Assembly (NCBI GenBank): GCA_905233525.1 | Contig: CAJOEW010000022.1 | Location: 43,549 to 99,037, forward strand | Reading direction: 5' to 3' | Length of the DNA: 55,489 nt | Source: an uncultured Synergistales bacterium | GTDB lineage: Bacteria > Synergistota > Synergistia > Synergistales > Aminobacteriaceae | In this document: in pieces, positions 20,009-31,307 of the stretch | Layout: every line of letters starts with the position of its first letter | Numbering within the stretch: the stretch's first letter is position 1 | The notes under the pieces: generated by a model | What the model saw: only the letters and a program-made list of their open reading frames with translations | Database searches by the model: none | What the model was told of the DNA's origin: nothing | Translations under genes and position numbers: made by a program

Positions 20009-23000
20009 TTAACGTGTCTTAATTGCTAAAACAGGCTCGTAAATAATTCCAGCTTCCAAATATACTGAAACAGTAACTAAATTATCTTCCGGCGCGTTCG
20101 TGATCTCATTGCCTTCGCTGTCAAAGAATAATGTTACGTTTTCTTGTGCGTCAGGTTCTTCATCTTCAACAGGGAATTTAAACAACACTAACTCACCATC
20201 GGTAATATCTTCGTAAAGCTCAACAGCTATATCATAAAATCCTGACTCGTCAACAGTTACCGCAGGTAATACAGCCGCAATTGAATATTCTTCGTTTTGG
20301 GCAAGCTCTACCATTTCAGCTGTAAGATCTCCGCGCGCAAATTCTGATAACGATCCTGAGCCTGTGCCATTAGAATTCGTCAATATGTCAATTTCTGATA
20401 CGCTCTCATCAAAAGCTATAGCCGTATCACTATCAGAAGCAGCAGCATTTACAACAAACGTAACTTTCTGGCTTGTTGTTCCTGTCGCGTTTTTGGCTTT
20501 GAACGTAATTTTGTAGGTCTTTGCTTTTGTCGGAGTGCCTGATAATTCGCCGGTTGATGAATTCAAAGTTAAGCCAGGGACTTTTGGCGACATAGTCCAC
20601 GTAACAGGAGAACCTACATCTGCCGTCAATTGAGCTGAATAACTTACACCAACAGTTGCATCGCTCAAGTTAACACTGAATACAGGCTTCAAAGGCATAA
20701 TTACGAGCTTGTAAGTTTTGTAAGCTGTGCCTGCGTCGTTCGTTGCAGAGATCGTAACGTTGAAATCGCCTGCTTCTGTTGGAGTTCCTAAAATTTCACC
20801 GGTAGATGTGTCTAAAGTTATTCCGGCAGGGAATAATCCGCTGTACGACCAAACTAACGGAGCTGTACCTTTAGATTTAAGCTTGACCGAATAACTTTTA
20901 TCGATCTTGCCTTTTTTAAGTGAGCTTGTGCTGATCTTAGGCGCTACAGGATTTATAACGAGCGTGAATACTTTTTCAGCCGTTCCAACTTCTGTCGTAG
21001 CAACAACCGTAAAATTAAATGTGCCGTAACCTGTTGGTTTACCTGAAATTTTACCGCTCTTGTTAAATTTCATTCCAGCCGGCATTGATGAACCGTCCGC
21101 TAAACTCCACGTAACTTTTTTCGGGCCAGCTGATAATTTTATTGTGGCACTGTAAGATTTTCCTGTTGTACCTTCTTTCAAATTTACATCAGCGATCACA
21201 GGCTTATCATAAACAGTAATTTTGATCGTCTTGCTAGCTTTACCTGTATCATTCGTAGCCGTGAATTTCACACTGTAAGCTCCTGATTTTGTTGGTGTGC
21301 CTGTTATTTCGCCTGCGCTTGACATTGTGAGGCCGGCCGGTAAATTTGTTGCTGTAAGAGTTATAGGCGTTGTTCCTGTGTATGTGAGATCGGCTGAATA
21401 CTCTTCGCCAACAATACCGGTAGCAAAATTCTTAGCAACTGATTTTATTACAGGTTTAACTCCTTTTATCGTGAGCTTTAGTGTCTTTTCAGCACTGCCT
21501 GCATCATTTTCGGCTTTGAATGTAATTTCACGATCTTTACACATTTCCGTCGGCGTTCCTGAAATTTTACCGGTATCAGCGTCAATAGCAAGTCCTTCAG
21601 GTAATTCGCCGTCAGTGATTGACCATGTAGCTGTGTTGCTGTTCTTAAGCTTGATCGTACAGTTGTAAGACTTTCCGTAAGTTCCAGTTGTTAATTTCGT
21701 CGTGGAGAATACAGGAACTTCTGCTACAGTTATCGTAAATTCTGCTGTATCAGTTCCGTAATCATTTTCAGCCTTGACAGTAAAAGTATATTCGCCTTTC
21801 TTCGTTGGTGTACCTGTGATTACGCCGGCACTAGTGATCTTTAAACCTGTAGGCAATGATCCGGAAGATAAGCTCCATGTTATATCGCCTGAACCGTCAG
21901 CTTCTAATGTCTGTGAATAAGTCGTTTTCAGAAGCGCTGCCTCAAGACTTGCTGTTGTGATTTTCGGTGCTGTTTCTTCTTCGATATCGACTGTAATTGT
22001 AAACGTCTTGCGAACTTCATCGACTCTATTTGACGCGGCGATCTCAAATTCAAATGTACCGCCTTTCGATGGAGTTCCTGTTATAGCTCCTGTTGAAGAA
22101 CTCAAGCTTAAACCATCAGGAAGCGATCCGCTTGAAAGTGTAAATCCGATCGGGCGTGTACCTGTTACATTAAGCTCAACGCTGTATTCTTCACCGAACA
22201 TAGCATTATCCAAGCTTTCAGTTACAAAAATCGGTGCGACTGGTGCGATATAAAGCGTGAAATCCTGCGAATCAGTTCCGGATGAATTTGTAGCACTGAT
22301 CGTAAATTTGAAAGTATTCGCGGCTGTAGGAGTTCCTGAAATTTCACCGGTCGAAGTGTTTAATTCAAGTCCTGTAGGTAATGATCCGCTCTCTAAATTC
22401 CATGTTATCGGAGTGTCGCCTAATGCTTCAAGCGTGTATGAATAATTTTCATCGTTGATAACGTCGCGTGATGTCATGGAAGGCAAAGCTTTTTGATTCA
22501 CGATTGAAGGCTCTGAATTTGGCTTAAGATTAACGATTAAATTTGCGCCTGTTAAACCGGTTGCATATTCATATTTCAAGAATGCCGGTAAACTTTCAGC
22601 TTGAATTATTCCGTCTGCGTAAGTGCTTGTTATTGAGTTCTCGCTGGAATCATAAGCTAACACGCTGGAAATATTTGACACGTCACTGACATAATTACTC
22701 ATATCAGAAACATAAACATCGCCGGATCTCGTAACCGTTAAACCTGTGATAATTTGATCCTGTATATTTAATTTAGCGATATCGCTTGGCGTGAGCTTTG
22801 TATTATTCGTTAAATCAAGCTCGTTAATTTTATTGCCTGATAATAATAACGTCGAAAGGTTCGTGTTATTAGACAGATCCAAGCTCGTCAAATTGTTATT
22901 CGTAACGTAAAGACATAACAAATTTTTATTATTACTCAAGTCAAGACTCTCAAGACTTCCGCCTATAGAGTACAGGTATGATAATTTCGTGTTCTTGCTC

Positions 23001-26000
23001 AAATCCACACTTGTTATATTTGAACCGGTAAGGTGCAGCTTCTGAAGCGATGTGAAATATTCGATACCCTTCAGACTTTTCACAGTCTTGTTATCTTTGA
23101 CAGTTAATAACGTTACAGCAGCGAGTTCAGTGTCGCTCAAATAGCCGTTTGAGTTCGTATCTTTACCTTCGATGTATGTTCTGAAATTCTCATCAGGGAA
23201 ATTTTCTTCATTGATCTCAATTCCTGGATCTTCGACCGTGAGTGATAATTCTGCTTCGTCCGATCCTTGTGAGTTATAAGCGTCAACAGTAAATGTAAAC
23301 GTTCCGTATTCAGTCGGTGTACCTGTGATCGTTCCGTTTGTTTTGAGCGTTAAACCTGCCGGTAATTTCCCATCGACTAATGACCAAGAAATTGTTTTTG
23401 ATCCTATAGCTTCAAGTTCACATGTATACGCAACATTTATATCGGCGTTATCAAGAGATGTTGTTTGAATCTCAGGCTGTGTAGAATTTACGGTTAATGT
23501 AATCGATTTCGTTTCGCCGTCGCCTGCAGAATTCTGGACTTTCACAACAAATGTAAATGTACCTTCTTCAGTTGGCGCGCCTGTGATCGTTCCGTCTGAA
23601 TTTAAAGTTAGTCCGGCTGGTAAACTTCCGCTTTCAAGAGACCATGTCAACGTCTGCGAGCTGATGTCATTGCCTAAATAGCCTTTTGATTGAAGCGCGA
23701 AACTATAATCATATTCGTAACCGGCTGCGTCAAGATAATCTGTTGTTATAACCGGCGGTTCTAAATCTCCTTTTGTGACTCTGATTTTAAATTCTTTGCT
23801 GTCAGATCCGTAAGCATTCGTCGCATAAACTTTAAATGTATATGTTCCGGCGGCCATTCTACCATTACTGGCGAGGAGATTCCCATTTGATATCATTCCA
23901 AAATCTGTAGTCGCAGCGTTATCTTCAAGAGACCATGTGATCGGCGTTGATCCTGTTGCTGCGAGAGCCTTTGAAGTTCCTGAAGTACCTTTTATAAATC
24001 CTAAATCGCTGTCAGTTGTGATCGATGGAGCAATTCCGATAACTAAGCTTAATGTCGCTGTATCAGATCCGTAATCATTTGTAACAGTGAGGCTTATACT
24101 TGATGTTCCTGACGCTTTAGGAGTTCCTGAAATTCTGCCGGTCGTGCTTGAATATTTTAAGCCGTTAGGTAATCCTGTTATCGTCCATGTTAAAGGAGAT
24201 TCGCCTGTTGCTTTTACATCAAATGAATATTCTTGATTTAATGTTCCTGATGTTATAGCTGTCGTTACGATTTGCGGCGTTTGCTGAGTTTTTAATTTAA
24301 CAGTCATGTAAACGGGCGAACTTGACGAATAAAAACCGGTGTTGTATTTGTATTGAACGTAATAAGCAACGTCTGTAAGTGTTAATTTCCAGAGATTCGA
24401 ATTTAATGTCGACGTTACTAAATTGCCGTCGTAATCATAAGCTTTAACGCTGGTCGTATCAATATATTGACGCACGGTTTTATCAAATAACGAAGAGAGA
24501 TCAGCGGTGTAATTTGTTCCTGAAGCTGTGAATGATAATCCGTAAACAACTTGGCCGTCGCATTCAAGAGCAGTAAGAGCCGTATTACTCCTGAGATCAA
24601 CCCATGCAAGAGCGTTATTACTGCAATCAAGCGTTACTAATTTTGTATTATTATCAACGTCAAGAGCAGTTAAATTATTTCCGCCGCAATATAAGTTCGT
24701 TAAATTTTTATTATTCCAGAGATTTAGCGATGTCAATTCATTATCAGCGCATTCAAGATACTCAAGAGCAGTATTATTTGTAAGGTCAAGCTCTGTTAAA
24801 TTATTATTCGAACATTTCAGCCAGGTTAATTTTGTATTTCCTGAGATATCTAAACTCGTTAAGCTGTTGTTATAACATGAGAGCTTTAACAATTCCGTGA
24901 ACACTTCCAAGCCTGTTAAATCCGTTAAATTTTTATTGCTCACGTTTATTTCTGTTACAGCTGCAATTTCAGACGCGCTTAAATATCCGTCGCCGTCCGT
25001 ATCAAAATTTGACGTTACAAAAGATTTAAACGTGCTGTCAGGAAATAAAGACGATGTGATCTCCGTGCCTGCAGTGTCGGTTGAGCTGTCAACATTCGAT
25101 GTGAAAGCTTTTACACAGACATTTCCCGGCGTTGATTCTGTTGAGCCGTCCTTCCACTCGTTATAAGCCGGAATCGTATCACCTACATAATAATAACTTT
25201 CACCGGCATTTACAACACAGTTATCTGAGTAATTTGATGAAGACTTTTCTATAGGGATTGTTCCGCCTCCATTGCTTGACTCTGTCAAACTTACAACGAC
25301 TGAGAAATAATCGCCTGCGCTTAATAGAAATTCCGACGGAATCACAACAGTATGATAACCGGCATAAGCAAATGTCCCTGAAGCAACAGCCGTTACACCT
25401 GATACAGAACTCGGAACAGGCTGTGAAGGTTTCGACGCGCCTAAATTAAATAAATAAACTTCATAGGACGTGTTTACATCCAACGTGTAAAAACCAACGG
25501 CATTTAATTTTTCATCGCCATTAGCCTGAAAAACGTTCGCCATCCAGTTTTTCGCGCTTGTATATCCAAACGATCCAACGTTTCCTAAATCGTCATAACC
25601 GTAATAATTTTCGCCTGGAATTGTTGATGAAACGATATAAGACGTAATGTTAGCGATATATTGTTCATATGACATATAGAAATATCCGCCGGCACCAGAA
25701 CTTGGCCAATCAGCTCCCCATGAATTACGGACTATCCAAGCACCGTTACTTGATGGCGTTGATCCGGCTGTGAAATTTGACGCGCTGTAATTATCATCCC
25801 AGCCAACAAGCAATACAGCATGATTCGTTGATGTTCCGCTGGTGTCATCATAATACGAAGCTACACCGCCTGCTGATGATGTTGCACCGGTTCCTGCGTA
25901 ATAACTTATTTGTACTGCGCCGTTGTCCATGATGAGCTGTTTTATAATTTCTTTTTTCTCTGCGTAATCAGTGTCCGAAGTACTTAAATTTCCAATCCTG

Positions 26001-26680
26001 TAAGCGTCTGTTAAAAATATTGTCCTTGGAAAATAGTCGCTTGGTGATTTTCCGCTTGCGTCAGTATCAACCGTTGAAGCACCAGTGTACGGCATAGAAC
26101 TCTCATTCACAGCTCCGGCCATGCGTGATAAAAATGCTATGCTCATCGTAGAATTACCGCCTTGATTTAAAACACCTGATCCAAATTGCGAACTTGTCCT
26201 AATTGTGAATGCCTTGCCAGTTTCAGGATCTTTATAGACGAAATAAGCTAAATGCAATTCTGATAAATTCGGTTCGCTTCCAAGACCTTGCGTTAAATAA
26301 CTGCTCTCGAGTGCACCCATAGCAGCATGCGCCCAACACGTACCGTAACTTCCTTGATCGCGAATAGTTGAAACTCGGTTTAATGTCCTTAAATCGTAAG
26401 TATCTGGAAGTGTACCGCGGTCAAATGTTATTCCTGACGGCGCAAAATTCGTATAATCCAAATGCGAATAATCAACAGGATCGGGAATGTATCCGGTTGC
26501 ATGTCCTGGATCTGAACCGGCTTGATCAAATGTAATAGAAGAATTTTGCTGTTCCAGCCAGTCCTGAAATTCTTGAGACGGCTGCGCTATTTCATATTTG
26601 TACGTTTCAGCCATTGCCGCCGGAGCAATAAACATCAACGCAAAAATTAAATAAAAGAGCGCAAATTTTTTGAAACTCAT
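20009..26680 (-). CDS. Giant secreted papain-like protease with LRR, EF-hand-like and putative-Ig repeats
   Basis: A 2223-residue exported protein. Residues 1-24 are a signal peptide. A C1A (papain-like) protease domain covers about 95-350 with oxyanion Gln109, catalytic Cys115 (QGSYGTCWAHA), His287 (NHAVLLVGWDD) and Asn319 (VRNSWG); all are present, so it should be active. A lectin-like domain typical of such bacterial C1 proteases follows (about 355-530). Next come an EF-hand-like loop (DTDGDGYLSASE, from 560) with leucine-rich repeats, four putative-Ig (He_PIG) modules, a second loop (DTNSNGYLSDTE) with leucine-rich repeats, and eight more putative-Ig modules recognised by LP-x-GL and ISGTP or ITGTP. 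The last 150 residues are an acidic domain ending in YEPVLAIKTR. No Synerg-CTERM tail follows. Likely role: surface or released protease/adhesin; the target is unknown. AAAGGAGG stands before the ATG. Confidence 0.9.
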   Translation of the reverse strand: MSFKKFALFYLIFALMFIAPAAMAETYKYEIAQPSQEFQDWLEQQNSSITFDQAGSDPGHATGYIPDPVDYSHLDYTNFAPSGITFDRGTLPDTYDLRTLNRVSTIRDQGSYGTCWAHAAMGALESSYLTQGLGSEPNLSELHLAYFVYKDPETGKAFTIRTSSQFGSGVLNQGGNSTMSIAFLSRMAGAVNESSMPYTGASTVDTDASGKSPSDYFPRTIFLTDAYRIGNLSTSDTDYAEKKEIIKQLIMDNGAVQISYYAGTGATSSAGGVASYYDDTSGTSTNHAVLLVGWDDNYSASNFTAGSTPSSNGAWIVRNSWGADWPSSGAGGYFYMSYEQYIANITSYIVSSTIPGENYYGYDDLGNVGSFGYTSAKNWMANVFQANGDEKLNAVGFYTLDVNTSYEVYLFNLGASKPSQPVPSSVSGVTAVASGTFAYAGYHTVVIPSEFLLSAGDYFSVVVSLTESSNGGGTIPIEKSSSNYSDNCVVNAGESYYYVGDTIPAYNEWKDGSTESTPGNVCVKAFTSNVDSSTDTAGTEITSSLFPDSTFKSFVTSNFDTDGDGYLSASEIAAVTEINVSNKNLTDLTGLEVFTELLKLSCYNNSLTSLDISGNTKLTWLKCSNNNLTELDLTNNTALEYLECADNELTSLNLWNNKNLTNLYCGGNNLTALDVDNNTKLVTLDCSNNALAWVDLRSNTALTALECDGQVVYGLSFTASGTNYTADLSSLFDKTVRQYIDTTSVKAYDYDGNLVTSTLNSNLWKLTLTDVAYYVQYKYNTGFYSSSSPVYMTVKLKTQQTPQIVTTAITSGTLNQEYSFDVKATGESPLTWTITGLPNGLKYSSTTGRISGTPKASGTSSISLTVTNDYGSDTATLSLVIGIAPSITTDSDLGFIKGTSGTSKALAATGSTPITWSLEDNAATTDFGMISNGNLLASNGRMAAGTYTFKVYATNAYGSDSKEFKIRVTKGDLEPPVITTDYLDAAGYEYDYSFALQSKGYLGNDISSQTLTWSLESGSLPAGLTLNSDGTITGAPTEEGTFTFVVKVQNSAGDGETKSITLTVNSTQPEIQTTSLDNADINVAYTCELEAIGSKTISWSLVDGKLPAGLTLKTNGTITGTPTEYGTFTFTVDAYNSQGSDEAELSLTVEDPGIEINEENFPDENFRTYIEGKDTNSNGYLSDTELAAVTLLTVKDNKTVKSLKGIEYFTSLQKLHLTGSNITSVDLSKNTKLSYLYSIGGSLESLDLSNNKNLLCLYVTNNNLTSLDLSNNTNLSTLLLSGNKINELDLTNNTKLTPSDIAKLNIQDQIITGLTVTRSGDVYVSDMSNYVSDVSNISSVLAYDSSENSITSTYADGIIQAESLPAFLKYEYATGLTGANLIVNLKPNSEPSIVNQKALPSMTSRDVINDENYSYTLEALGDTPITWNLESGSLPTGLELNTSTGEISGTPTAANTFKFTISATNSSGTDSQDFTLYIAPVAPIFVTESLDNAMFGEEYSVELNVTGTRPIGFTLSSGSLPDGLSLSSSTGAITGTPSKGGTFEFEIAASNRVDEVRKTFTITVDIEEETAPKITTASLEAALLKTTYSQTLEADGSGDITWSLSSGSLPTGLKITSAGVITGTPTKKGEYTFTVKAENDYGTDTAEFTITVAEVPVFSTTKLTTGTYGKSYNCTIKLKNSNTATWSITDGELPEGLAIDADTGKISGTPTEMCKDREITFKAENDAGSAEKTLKLTIKGVKPVIKSVAKNFATGIVGEEYSADLTYTGTTPITLTATNLPAGLTMSSAGEITGTPTKSGAYSVKFTATNDTGKASKTIKITVYDKPVIADVNLKEGTTGKSYSATIKLSAGPKKVTWSLADGSSMPAGMKFNKSGKISGKPTGYGTFNFTVVATTEVGTAEKVFTLVINPVAPKISTSSLKKGKIDKSYSVKLKSKGTAPLVWSYSGLFPAGITLDTSTGEILGTPTEAGDFNVTISATNDAGTAYKTYKLVIMPLKPVFSVNLSDATVGVSYSAQLTADVGSPVTWTMSPKVPGLTLNSSTGELSGTPTKAKTYKITFKAKNATGTTSQKVTFVVNAAASDSDTAIAFDESVSEIDILTNSNGTGSGSLSEFARGDLTAEMVELAQNEEYSIAAVLPAVTVDESGFYDIAVELYEDITDGELVLFKFPVEDEEPDAQENVTLFFDSEGNEITNAPEDNLVTVSVYLEAGIIYEPVLAIKTR

Positions 26681-26861: not shown

Positions 26862-27407
26862 ATGCGTAAAATAATTTGCCTGATGTTCGTATTTTTATTG
26901 TTACCTGTAAATGTTTATGCCGCCGTGTCAAATGATCAAAATGTATATCTTCGTAATGATGTCTTTGAGGCCAAAATGGAAGCTCTTAGATCTGATATGC
27001 GTCTTGAACATCAGAGGCTCGAAAACAAAATCGATAAGACACGTCAGGATCTTGAAAACAAAATCGATAAGACACGTCAGGATCTTGAAAACAAAATCGA
27101 TAGCTTACATTCAGAAATACTCAATAATCATAATAGTTTACGCGCGGAAATGAACGCAGGATTAAAACGGCTGGAAGATAAAATAACCGCTTTCGCTGAA
27201 AAAACTGATGCACGTATTGATGGCTTGCGCGACACGATTTATTGGGGATTATCGTTCTTCGGAATTCTTATAGCTGTGTTCACTCTTATTCCATGGGCCC
27301 AAAACGCTGCTAAAAAATATTTCACGCCTCCTGTAACTATTGAGCAGGTTGAAGAAATTATAAATGCAAAATTTTCTGAGTTAGCCGCCAAAAATGTAAA
27401 AGTGTAA
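26862..27407 (+). CDS. Exported or membrane coiled-coil protein with internal 11-residue repeats
   Basis: A 181-residue protein. Residues 1-20 form a signal peptide or anchor (LMFVFLLLPVNVYA). Residues 30-125 are a continuous heptad-rich coiled coil that contains the 11-residue unit LENKIDKTRQD twice and a third partial copy. One transmembrane helix follows (YWGLSFFGILIAVFTLI, about 128-145), then a short tail. The plan resembles small coiled-coil membrane proteins such as the DUF1640 type, but no firm family is recognised. The ATG is preceded by CGGAGC. It lies 25 bases upstream of the first TctC-type receptor gene on the same strand, so it may share its transcript. Confidence 0.65.
   Translation: MRKIICLMFVFLLLPVNVYAAVSNDQNVYLRNDVFEAKMEALRSDMRLEHQRLENKIDKTRQDLENKIDKTRQDLENKIDSLHSEILNNHNSLRAEMNAGLKRLEDKITAFAEKTDARIDGLRDTIYWGLSFFGILIAVFTLIPWAQNAAKKYFTPPVTIEQVEEIINAKFSELAAKNVKV
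27018..27101 (+). repeat. 33-bp tandem repeat inside the coiled-coil gene
   Basis: Two copies of a 33-base unit (27018-27050 and 27051-27083) differ by a single base, and a third partial copy runs from 27084 to 27101. The unit encodes LENKIDKTRQD. Because 33 is a multiple of three, changes in copy number would lengthen or shorten the coiled coil without breaking the frame. Confidence 0.9.
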
Positions 27408-27432: not shown

Positions 27433-28431
27433 ATGCGTTGCCGTTTAAAATTTGGAATATGTTTTTTATTATTGGCCGTCTTGATGTGTGATTACGCTCA
27501 TGCAGAAAACAGAAAATTATATGCAGAAGGTGTTATAGCTTGGACACGAGGCGGCGGAACTGATACAACGTTTAGAGCACTCATAGATTATATTAACGCG
27601 CATAATTCTGACCTACATATAAATCCGATTAACAAAACAGGTTTTTCAGGTGCTTACGCAACAAGATACGTTTATGAAAAAAAACCTGACGGCAAAACTA
27701 TTTTAATCAATGCTGAAAATCCTCCGTTGTATAAAATGCTTGAATACGGAAATCATAATTATGACGATTTCGAATGTATATTACTCGCAGCTACAGAGCC
27801 GGCTTCTATTGTTGTTCCTGCAAGTTCAAAATGGCGCAGCTTAACTCAAATGTTTGAAGCCGTTAAAAATGGTGAAACAGTTACAGAAGCTTCAAGCAAT
27901 ATCGGCGGAATGCCATGGACTGTAAGTTCAATGCTTAATGGAGCGTCCGGTATTATTTTTCAGCGTGAATGGTATATAGACGACTTGTCAGCAATATTAT
28001 CAATTTTTGATGGAAGCAATGATTTAACGTTCGCTAAAGTTCAGTTAGTAAGAGAACCTGTACGCAACGGCCGATTAAGATTTATATCGATTATAGGCGA
28101 TGAACGAATTGAAGATCTCCCAGATATTCCGGCAATTGTTGAAGAAGTACCTGCGTTTAAAGATTATCTGCCATGGGGACCATTTTACGGAGCGTTCTTA
28201 AAAAAAGGGACTCCGCCTGAAATAATTCAACGCTGGCAAAAAGCTTTTATGGAGGCTTACGAATCTGAAGAGTTTCAAAGATTTTTATATACTCACGGCA
28301 TGACACCTTTAGGACTTTCAGGAGAAGAAGCCAATAAATATATTCACGACTGGCAGGAAAGGACATTAAAAGCTCTGGCTAAATCAAATTTAAATCTAAA
28401 TTTCAAATTCAACAGGCTTAACGAAGAATAA
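27433..28431 (+). CDS. TctC/Bug-type extracytoplasmic solute receptor, copy 1
   Basis: A 332-residue exported binding protein. Residues 1-24 are a signal peptide (VLMCDYAHAEN). The TctC pattern is clear: GVIAWTRGGGTDTTFRALI near the start, then INKTGFSGAYATRYVYEKKP and PDGKTIL. EASSNIGGMPW lies near residue 155, and KKGTPPEIIQRWQKAF near the C-terminus. Such receptors bind tricarboxylates, dicarboxylates, aromatic acids or similar compounds in the periplasm. It is followed 63 bases later by a close paralogue and then by TRAP-type membrane subunits. AAGGAGCTG stands about ten bases before the ATG. Confidence 0.85.
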   Translation: MRCRLKFGICFLLLAVLMCDYAHAENRKLYAEGVIAWTRGGGTDTTFRALIDYINAHNSDLHINPINKTGFSGAYATRYVYEKKPDGKTILINAENPPLYKMLEYGNHNYDDFECILLAATEPASIVVPASSKWRSLTQMFEAVKNGETVTEASSNIGGMPWTVSSMLNGASGIIFQREWYIDDLSAILSIFDGSNDLTFAKVQLVREPVRNGRLRFISIIGDERIEDLPDIPAIVEEVPAFKDYLPWGPFYGAFLKKGTPPEIIQRWQKAFMEAYESEEFQRFLYTHGMTPLGLSGEEANKYIHDWQERTLKALAKSNLNLNFKFNRLNEE

Positions 28432-28494
28432 AAAAATTTTTTAGAGTAAAATCTAACCAGTAACATAAACATCAATCGAAGGAGCGTTTTTAAT

Positions 28495-29514
28495 TTGCAC
28501 AGTTTACATAAACAACGCAAAATAATTTTTAAAATTTTCTTGTGCATGATTTTTTGTTTAATGCTTTCTCGTTCAGGATATGCAGCCGAAAAATTAAAGC
28601 ACATAAATGCAGAAGGCGTTATAGCATGGGGAAGAGGCGGCGGAACTGATTTGCTTGCTCGCACGTTAATATCTTATATCAATGCAAAATATAAAGATCT
28701 TAATATCGTGCCTGTTAATCGTACCGGTTTTGCAGGAGCCGCAGCTTTGCAATATGCTTATAATCAAAAACCTGACGGAACTACGATTTTATTTAGTGCT
28801 GAAAATCCAACGCTGTTCTCAATGCTCGGATATGGAGATAAAAATTATAAGGACTTCGATTGTATTTTATTAGCCGGTAAAGAAACTGTAGGGCTTATTG
28901 TTCCGACGAATTCAGGCTGGCGGACTGTTCATGATATCGTCGATACAGTTAAATCAGATGTAGAAGTCGTCGAAGCAAGTACAAATATCGGCGGCATGAT
29001 ATGGAATATAACAGGAATGCTGAATCATTTGACGGGCGTTAACTTCGTTCAAGAATGGTACACTGACGATAAATCAGCAATGGAAGCAGTTTTTACAGGC
29101 CAAGCTGATTTTACTTTTGCAAAAATTCAATTAGCACGTGAAGCGATTCGCAATGGCCGTGTCAGATATATCGCTATGATATCAGATGAAGAAATCGAAG
29201 GCTTTGAAGATGTACCGTCAATAACAAAAGAATATCCGGAATTTAAAAATTATTTACCGTGGGGATCTTTTTACGGAGTATTTGTTAAAAAAGGGACTCC
29301 TCCTGAAATAATTCAACGCTGGCAAGAGGCTTTTATAGACGCTTATAATTCTGACGCATTCCAAAGATATTTACGTATAAATCAAATGGACGCGTTAGGG
29401 CTTCAAGGCGATGAGGCGAATAAATATATAGACGCGTGGGGAAATAAAACCCTTACTGCACTTTCAAAAGGCGAATTAAATATGAATTACAGGTTTAGCA
29501 GTTTGGAGGATTAA
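28495..29514 (+). CDS. TctC/Bug-type extracytoplasmic solute receptor, copy 2
   Basis: A 339-residue paralogue of the preceding receptor, clearly similar along its full length (GVIAWGRGGGTDLLARTLI, VNRTGFAGAAALQYAYNQKP, PDGTTIL, EASTNIGGMIW, KKGTPPEIIQRWQEAF). The start is TTG at 28495, supported by GAAGGAG at a proper distance. The signal peptide ends near SGYAAEK. The two copies probably arose by duplication and then drifted, so they may bind different ligands for one membrane unit. The DctQ-like gene begins eight bases after its stop, which ties this copy to the TRAP-type membrane subunits. Confidence 0.85.
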   Translation: MHSLHKQRKIIFKIFLCMIFCLMLSRSGYAAEKLKHINAEGVIAWGRGGGTDLLARTLISYINAKYKDLNIVPVNRTGFAGAAALQYAYNQKPDGTTILFSAENPTLFSMLGYGDKNYKDFDCILLAGKETVGLIVPTNSGWRTVHDIVDTVKSDVEVVEASTNIGGMIWNITGMLNHLTGVNFVQEWYTDDKSAMEAVFTGQADFTFAKIQLAREAIRNGRVRYIAMISDEEIEGFEDVPSITKEYPEFKNYLPWGSFYGVFVKKGTPPEIIQRWQEAFIDAYNSDAFQRYLRINQMDALGLQGDEANKYIDAWGNKTLTALSKGELNMNYRFSSLED

Positions 29515-29521
29515 ATTATTT

Positions 29522-29947
29522 ATGAAGATCAAAAAAATTTTACAGAACTTAGATTTATTTATTATGTTCGTTTTATTTGTTTTCGTATGTGTTTTTGAGC
29601 TTACGGAGCTTGTACCGGATCTGCATATGAAAATATGGGCTGAAAGGTGCTGCGGCATGATCGTAATATTAGGAATTTTAATAACAGCACGCAAAAATAT
29701 TTTCATTACGTTTAACGGATTCTTATTTAAGAAATTAAAATTCATTATCAATATTCTCATGGCACTTACATATATTTTTCTTGAGACTATTTTAATAATA
29801 AGTCTTAACAGCTATTTAAGTTATGCCACGCCGTCAGAGGCTTATTTATGGTTCGGAGTGTTATATTTTACTTCGTTGATCGTTTATCCGTTATCGCTGT
29901 TCTTTTTGATACGTAATATTTTTAATCCAAATAGGAAGGATGCATAA
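29522..29947 (+). CDS. TRAP transporter small membrane subunit, DctQ-like
   Basis: A 141-residue protein with four hydrophobic helices (about residues 10-28, 42-56, 70-95 and 105-130) and charged ends. This is the size and topology of DctQ, and also of TctB. It ends at the base before the DctM-type gene begins, so the pair is tightly coupled. DctQ and TctB cannot be told apart well by eye; the call rests mainly on the DctM partner. In TRAP systems this subunit bridges the receptor and the large permease. Confidence 0.65.
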   Translation: MKIKKILQNLDLFIMFVLFVFVCVFELTELVPDLHMKIWAERCCGMIVILGILITARKNIFITFNGFLFKKLKFIINILMALTYIFLETILIISLNSYLSYATPSEAYLWFGVLYFTSLIVYPLSLFFLIRNIFNPNRKDA

Positions 29948-31228
29948 ATGGTTATAATCTCGTTAATAATTTTGCTCGTACTGTTGTTTTTGGGCGTGCC
30001 TGTATTTTTCAGTACGATGCTTTCTGTGGCAGGCTTTATTATTTCAGGCTCTATACAAATTTCTGATCTAGCATATATCGCAATAACAAAGAGCATGAAT
30101 TCATCGCAGGTATCAATATTATTATTCGTAATGACCGGTTTGATATGTTTCAGAGGAAATTTAACAGAGAGATTTTTTAACATCTTCGCTTATTTTTTCG
30201 GCAATAACAGAATATTTAGACCTGTCATGGGAATTTTATTAGCGTTAGTTTTTGCGTCGGTCTCTCAATCTACTACGGCGGTAATAGCTTTATCAGCTGG
30301 AATGTGTATGCCGTTATTATTATTGAGAGGTTATTCGCCAGGATTTGCAGCAGCGTTATTTATGTGTGCAGGCGTTTTAAGTTTTCTAATTCCTCCAAGT
30401 ACTTCATTAAGAGCTGTTATCGGACTTGCTAATATTACACCTGATATCGGATATTACGGCGGAATAATTTTAGGATTGGCCGGCGCTGTTGTTTTGATAG
30501 TATACGCGATCCTGCATTGCATAATCACAAAAGACGGCGACTTAGAAAAAATTCAAGAACATCAGAATGAATTATACGCTAAAGGTTTTCCGGTCGTATT
30601 TTTCGAAGGTTTGTTAGCTCTCACGCTTCCTGCACTCATTGTCGCGAGCATGGCCTTTAAAATATTTACATCAACACAGGCCGCAGCATTCTCAGTTGTA
30701 TATTCTGTTGTTGTGAGTACGTTTTTTTTCGGAACATTAAGCCTGAAACGCTGCCTCGAAGTCATAAAAGAAGGCTTGATTGATATTTCGCCGCTGCTTG
30801 TTTTAGTCTTTGCCGCTAATTTTTTCAGCGCTTGTATAGAAGAACTTGACGCAGTGAAAATTTTAGCTTCTCATATTCGTGAGGCCGGTAAAAATTCTCA
30901 AGAGATAACTTTATTGATATTCGCGGCTCTGTTTGTTTTAGGTATGTTTATGGATTCCGTCGACGCTTGTTATATGTTGGTGCCTGCAATTTTACCAGCG
31001 GCATTCATGGCAGGTGTAGAGCCTTATCATTTATTGATCGGTCTCGTTGGAATTGAAAGTATCGGTTTAATAACGCCTCCGATCGGTTTAGCAATGTATA
31101 CGATGATGGCGGTATCGCACGTAAAATTCTGGGATATGTTCAAAAATCTTATTTTACCGATGTTATTGCTAATGATTTTATTTACGGTTTTCGCTTTATT
31201 CCCGTCTTTAACTCCGTTCATAGGATAA
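29948..31228 (+). CDS. TRAP transporter large permease, DctM family
   Basis: A 426-residue permease, the normal DctM length (TctA proteins are about 500). It has about eleven to twelve hydrophobic helices and DctM hallmarks: LFLGVPVFFSTMLSVAGFI at the N-terminus, GVLSFLIPPSTSLRAVIGLA mid-protein and IESIGLITPPIGLAMYTMMA near the C-terminus. It would drive sodium- or proton-coupled uptake of a carboxylate. The upstream receptors are of the TctC type and not DctP or TAXI, which is an unusual combination. AGGAAGG stands before the ATG. A strong terminator follows. Confidence 0.88.
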   Translation: MVIISLIILLVLLFLGVPVFFSTMLSVAGFIISGSIQISDLAYIAITKSMNSSQVSILLFVMTGLICFRGNLTERFFNIFAYFFGNNRIFRPVMGILLALVFASVSQSTTAVIALSAGMCMPLLLLRGYSPGFAAALFMCAGVLSFLIPPSTSLRAVIGLANITPDIGYYGGIILGLAGAVVLIVYAILHCIITKDGDLEKIQEHQNELYAKGFPVVFFEGLLALTLPALIVASMAFKIFTSTQAAAFSVVYSVVVSTFFFGTLSLKRCLEVIKEGLIDISPLLVLVFAANFFSACIEELDAVKILASHIREAGKNSQEITLLIFAALFVLGMFMDSVDACYMLVPAILPAAFMAGVEPYHLLIGLVGIESIGLITPPIGLAMYTMMAVSHVKFWDMFKNLILPMLLLMILFTVFALFPSLTPFIG

Positions 31229-31244
31229 TGAGAATAAAAAATCG

Positions 31245-31266
31245 CCTCCGACCATGAAATCGGAGG
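31245..31266 (+). terminator. Bidirectional terminator between the TRAP operon and mutS2
   Basis: CCTCCGA (31245-31251) pairs with TCGGAGG (31260-31266) around an eight-base loop. TTTAATATTTTT follows on the plus strand, and ATTTTTTATT follows on the minus strand. It can end both the DctM gene and the convergent cvpA-mutS2 operon. Confidence 0.85.
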
Positions 31267-31307
31267 TTTAATATTTTTGTAAAGCTTTAATTTTTAAATT
31301 ATTTCAT

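Follow-up and report, generated by a model that had tools for sequence, protein, structure and literature searches.

Receptor-dependent transporters are described as falling into three classes, ABC, TRAP, and TTT, each with fixed receptor families (PMC9352664). TRAP transporters use either a DctP or a TAXI receptor and TTT transporters (TctCBA) use TctC, and Rosa et al. 2018 did not settle whether TctC proteins might also serve the membrane components of another class (PMC5812351). Within the DctP-type TRAP transporters (DctPQM), a salt bridge between R32 of Q and E237 of M is reported to be fully conserved in work on PpSiaQM (7QHA; PMC9971032), and the substitutions R30E in Q and E429R in M of HiSiaQM (7QE5) abolish receptor binding (PMC9352664). 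Literature searches, within the collection of papers covered, found no report of a TctC-DctQM pairing.

The window, which is the whole stretch of 55,489 nucleotides that was analysed, contains two TctC-family receptor genes followed by genes for a DctQ- and a DctM-type membrane subunit. Like DctP-type TRAP transporters, this module has a large subunit of the DctM fold family, a DctQ, albeit divergent, and the sodium-site motifs; its Q and M genes are separate, as in PpSiaQM, and its receptor genes lie in the operon, as in DctPQM. Unlike them, it has TctC receptors in place of DctP and lacks the R32(Q):E237(M) pair. TAXI-TRAP is similar in joining a TRAP pump to a non-DctP receptor and in lacking E at the E237 position, but it has its own receptor family, a fused QM, and a separate permease clade, whereas here Q and M are separate genes, the receptors are TctC, and the permeases lie outside the TAXI clade. 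TTT shares the receptor family, and within the same genus the TctC proteins most closely related to the hybrid receptors precede TctB-TctA; however, the module contains neither TctA nor TctB. Because the receptor class and the docking pair both depart from those of TRAP, the module is not filed as an ordinary TRAP member. Judged from its sequences, it would function in the manner of a TRAP transporter and add a third class of receptor to those known for TRAP pumps.

Genes of the window module

The first receptor gene, R1, occupies positions 27433 to 28431 on the forward strand, with AAGGAG preceding its ATG, and encodes a protein of 332 residues with a signal peptide. R2 (28495 to 29514, forward strand; 339 residues) starts at a TTG preceded by a good ribosome-binding site. 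Both proteins contain GGGTD and PDG(K/T)TIL, and above the Pfam cut-off they match TctC alone (PF03401; 3.5e-24 and 86.2 bits for R1, 2.5e-20 and 73.6 bits for R2, with a cut-off of 27). Thus, the initial annotation, which read them as tandem receptors with the TctC/Bug pattern, is borne out, and neither TAXI nor DctP is the better match. The PDB sequences closest to R2 are also TctC/Bug receptors, and the first 17 fold matches to its AlphaFold model (pLDDT 83.6) are TctC structures, with TM up to 0.88; the first named TRAP receptor, IseP, appears at rank 49 with a TM of ~0.45. In this module type, the presence of a receptor pair may broaden the substrate range.

R2 is followed after seven bases, rather than the eight originally counted, by the gene for the small membrane subunit (29522 to 29947, forward strand; 141 residues), whose four predicted helices had been correctly described. 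By itself, this protein matches neither DctQ nor TctB in Pfam. However, its orthologues match DctQ (PF04290) weakly, at 5.3e-5, which falls below the curated cut-off, and 4.9e-3, and a profile of the family matches DctQ with an E value of 3.7e-6 (87%) versus 0.055 (1%) for TctB. These matches, weak but specific, identify it as a divergent DctQ. The same profile has no match in the PDB, and the fold model (pLDDT 66.6) is too uncertain to be informative; a fold search with it gave no match.

The large subunit gene (29948 to 31228, forward strand) begins immediately after the stop codon of the small one, with a gap of zero. Its 426-residue product is a DctM-family, 12-helix TRAP permease, as annotated: it matches PF06808 at 1.4e-45 (156 bits; cut-off 23.8), its significant PDB matches are exclusively TRAP QM proteins (best 7.3e-30), and a Pfam search returned no TctA match at E<=10. 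It scores 160 bits against TIGR00786, below that model's cut-off of 268 bits. The profile searches that the initial annotation had proposed therefore place the receptors in TctC, the permease in DctM rather than TctA, and the small subunit in DctQ rather than TctB. Residue matching to PpSiaM indicates that the permease keeps the sodium-site motifs S106/S108, IPPS, and TPP, with both twin-proline motifs preserved, and sodium-driven, receptor-dependent uptake is predicted for the module.

Ribosome-binding sites are found for R1, R2, and both membrane genes, that of the small subunit gene being GGAGGA. A terminator-like stem-loop at 31244 to 31267 (forward strand) follows the permease gene at a position that suits the end of an operon; it comes from a consensus scan only, which found 3 stem-loops where 3.8 were expected in shuffled sequences. 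On the other side, an open reading frame for a secreted or anchored coiled-coil protein (26862 to 27407, forward strand) ends 25 bases before R1. It belongs to the run of genes in the window genome and is missing at the corresponding locus of another genome, G036, and whether its product is part of the transporter is uncertain. The exported coiled-coil family to which it belongs, with an N-terminal YLRxDVFEA and a C-terminal membrane segment, adjoins three different TctC loci of the window genome in a search among the collected loci (window 26862-27407, L017:6402-7238, and L022:4719-5417). Farther upstream, positions 20009 to 26680 of the window encode an exported protein of 2223 residues; on visual inspection, a papain-like peptidase domain (GSYGTCWAHAA) comes first, and leucine-rich and immunoglobulin-like repeats follow it.

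Recurrence, descent, and docking residues

The initial annotation had left two readings, a new receptor-permease pairing or a chance fusion of two operons, and had proposed a survey of genomes for conserved TctC-DctQM neighbourhoods. Conducted through the small-subunit family, this survey finds the order TctC-DctQ-DctM in a few gut Synergistota, amounting to 5 of 183 Synergistales genomes, all of a single genus and all apparently metagenome assemblies. The arrangement is therefore present in related genomes, where it takes two forms. The first, with two tandem TctC receptors, occurs in the window and in G036, whose permease is ~59-60% identical to that of the window. In the second, aroD-TctC-DctQ-DctM lies opposite a LysR gene; this form is found in G004, G006, and G022, with permeases 46% identical to that of the window, and again in the window genome itself, on contig C18. 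Within the modules the genes overlap or come close to touching; in G004 and G022, four bases are shared between the receptor gene and the Q gene. In the other DctQMs examined in related genomes, a DctP gene adjoins each.

Outside the order, TctC relatives from ten genomes of other phyla lie beside TctA or have no detected permease, with none beside DctM, and in 394 genomes of the Lawsonibacter order (that of locus L041) a search at a strict 1e-85, run without a positive control, found no close hybrid permease. Loci of Halomonadaceae in which TctC lies near DctM (L057, L073, L099) were rejected as hybrids, since complete DctPQM and TctCBA systems are present there side by side. A TctC-TctC-DctQ-DctM run in another Synergistales genus (L177) was likewise rejected as an independent hybrid, given that DctP follows DctM and TctBA precedes the receptors.

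The permease and receptor trees indicate where the two halves come from. In the receptor tree (43 rows), the seven hybrid receptors group together as a single clade (100/100). Its sister group consists of TctC proteins beside TctB-TctA in other species of the genus, where these genes precede TctB-TctA in 12 genomes. Window R1 falls within the hybrid clade with R1 of G036; the R1/R2 duplication is older than the split between the two, and both copies have been retained in the window species and in G036, which agrees with the initial suggestion that the two receptors may differ in ligand preference. The hybrid permeases also form one clade (100/100), which groups with the DctP-type permeases and apart from the TAXI type. 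These positions are consistent with a single origin in the genus, in which a TctC from a TctC-TctB-TctA system would have joined a pump derived from a DctP-type DctQM; DctP would then have been lost, the docking surface of Q and M altered, and the module split into the aroD-linked form and the two-receptor form of the window. A plausible forerunner, rather than a hybrid, is seen in other Synergistales genera (L177, L181, L186), where complete TctCBA and DctQM-DctP systems also bring the TctC and DctQM genes close together, partly within aroD/aroE clusters, while keeping DctP and TctBA, so that each pump has its own receptor. A hybrid could arise from such a locus by loss of DctP and TctBA. In L177 and L186, aroD lies near the paired systems, accompanied in L177 by a gene of the shikimate-dehydrogenase type; the paired systems look as if both import related compounds.

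The docking residues differ as well. When the window permease is matched residue by residue to PpSiaM, in which E237 is the E of FTPTEAA, FTSTQAAA replaces FTxxEAA, placing Q at the E237 position. With the hybrid and fused groups set aside, the survey covered 107 M sequences, which are close matches to the query, many from Halomonadaceae, and hence not independent; this position is E in 105 of them, D in one, and Q in one. The lone Q belongs to a DctM on contig C40 of the window genome, where no receptor gene lies close by. The 33 fused TAXI-type sequences (the fused proteins of the order, with receptors taken as TAXI from the family definition) never have E here, but K in 21, R in 5, and others in the rest. 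The five hybrids have Q, Q, Q, Q, and R. On the other side of the bridge, 99 of the 101 canonical-type Q subunits aligned at this position carry the arginine, the exceptions being the C40 subunit (H) and another with S. The hybrids lack it, and the alignment used determines whether a deletion or D/E is seen in its place.

Proposed mechanism and alternatives

The established part families, conserved arrangement, lack of a spare DctP, tree positions, and docking-residue changes together make it likely, with a probability of roughly 0.8, that the module is a TRAP-type secondary importer in which TctC receptors have replaced DctP. As predicted from sequence features, the periplasmic R1 and R2 would capture a small organic acid and, by docking on the DctQ-DctM pair, deliver it to the pump, which would move it inward through an elevator movement driven by sodium. 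Quinate, shikimate, or 3-dehydroquinate is the probable substrate of the aroD type, as suggested by the dehydratase gene linked to it; the window type has no linked enzyme gene.

The genes could instead be neighbours that do not work together, the DctQM needing no receptor or relying on a distant one, and TctC serving as a sensor, a scavenger, or a partner of the genome's single TctBA. Partnerless Bug/TctC proteins are indeed common and have known signalling roles (PMC5812351), and the window genome, with its one TctA and several TctC genes lacking an adjacent permease, illustrates that TctC genes can sit without a nearby transport partner. Yet the pairing has survived divergence of the modules down to the 46% permease identity of the aroD type, the genes overlap in two genomes, no spare DctP is present, and the docking residues have changed, all of which render this explanation unlikely. 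A DctQM left behind by the loss of DctP, with a decaying pump and residue changes that reflect drift, is more improbable still. The damage seen in two of the six module copies and the short, divergent hybrid Q fit such a degenerating locus, but the M subunits of G004, G006, and G022 are intact and nearly identical, the window and G036 copies are intact and keep the sodium-site motifs despite their divergence, and the docking position is Q or R rather than random.

That two operons were joined by chance, or that the assembly is at fault, is effectively excluded, because the same gene order recurs in five separate genomes, of which two are named as reticulum assemblies from red deer and goat, and across both of the diverged module types; the trees and the lack of a spare DctP reinforce this conclusion. 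In favour of an artefact, the window genome is a draft in 66 contigs, with its C18 copy broken at a contig end. Of the two original readings, then, the pairing stands and the chance fusion does not.

A TRAP pump served by TctC receptors would provide a concrete case for the question left by Rosa et al. 2018, and it suggests that TRAP and TctC-using transporter families can swap parts. It offers a partner for some TctA-less TctC proteins, makes receptor-pump recognition testable by swapping one or two residues, and illustrates that annotating from the permease family alone can overlook the receptor. We lean, if only slightly, toward a broader proposal: that TRAP accepts TctC as a third receptor class, that the class is set by one docking residue of M (E for DctP, mostly K/R for TAXI, Q/R for TctC), and that, together with the TctC-CitMHS fusion described below, TctC is a portable receptor used on at least three kinds of secondary permease.

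Other transporter genes in the window genome

The window genome is 97.6% complete at 1.64 Mb and contains seven matches to DctM, eleven to TctC, one to TctA, and two to DctP. Both DctP genes adjoin the DctQM of contig C29, leaving no spare DctP for the window DctQM; spare receptors are counted here as DctP, with other TAXI-type receptors set aside. The sole TctA belongs to a canonical TctCBA on C14, and C12 carries a fused QM together with what looks like a TAXI receptor. The second hybrid module, on C18, is preceded by a gene for a type I 3-dehydroquinate dehydratase and lies opposite the LysR gene. Its M gene is frameshifted and runs off the contig edge (L019:9376-10000), and the end of C7 (L024) carries what appears to be the 3' part of this gene. 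The receptor gene of G006 contains an in-frame stop, and for both damaged copies decay and assembly error are indistinguishable.

The hybrid permeases have their closest relative in the M of a DctQ-DctM pair on C40 (L027:1371-3400), which lacks a nearby receptor gene. Because of this relationship and the Q at the E237 position, the pair may use one of the TctC proteins that lack a neighbouring permease. Two TctC loci with no permease gene nearby encode exported proteins with tandem TctC domains: one of 910 residues with four matched stretches on C10 (L018:4903-7635) and one of 607 residues with several domains on C25 (L020:4133-5956). Another permease-less TctC, on C48 (L022:479-4577), lies beside genes reading as citrate lyase subunits, and in the receptor tree it groups with the TctC domain of a fusion protein encoded on C3 (L017:4135-6468). 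In this protein of 777 residues, a TctC domain (9.2e-22) is fused with a citrate permease of the CitMHS type (1.2e-20), and it could represent another class of secondary transporter that depends on a receptor. About 30 of 43 genomes of the genus have the fusion at full length, as one open frame with 70-75% identity; it is truncated in two further genomes, and in G003 the two parts are adjacent separate genes.
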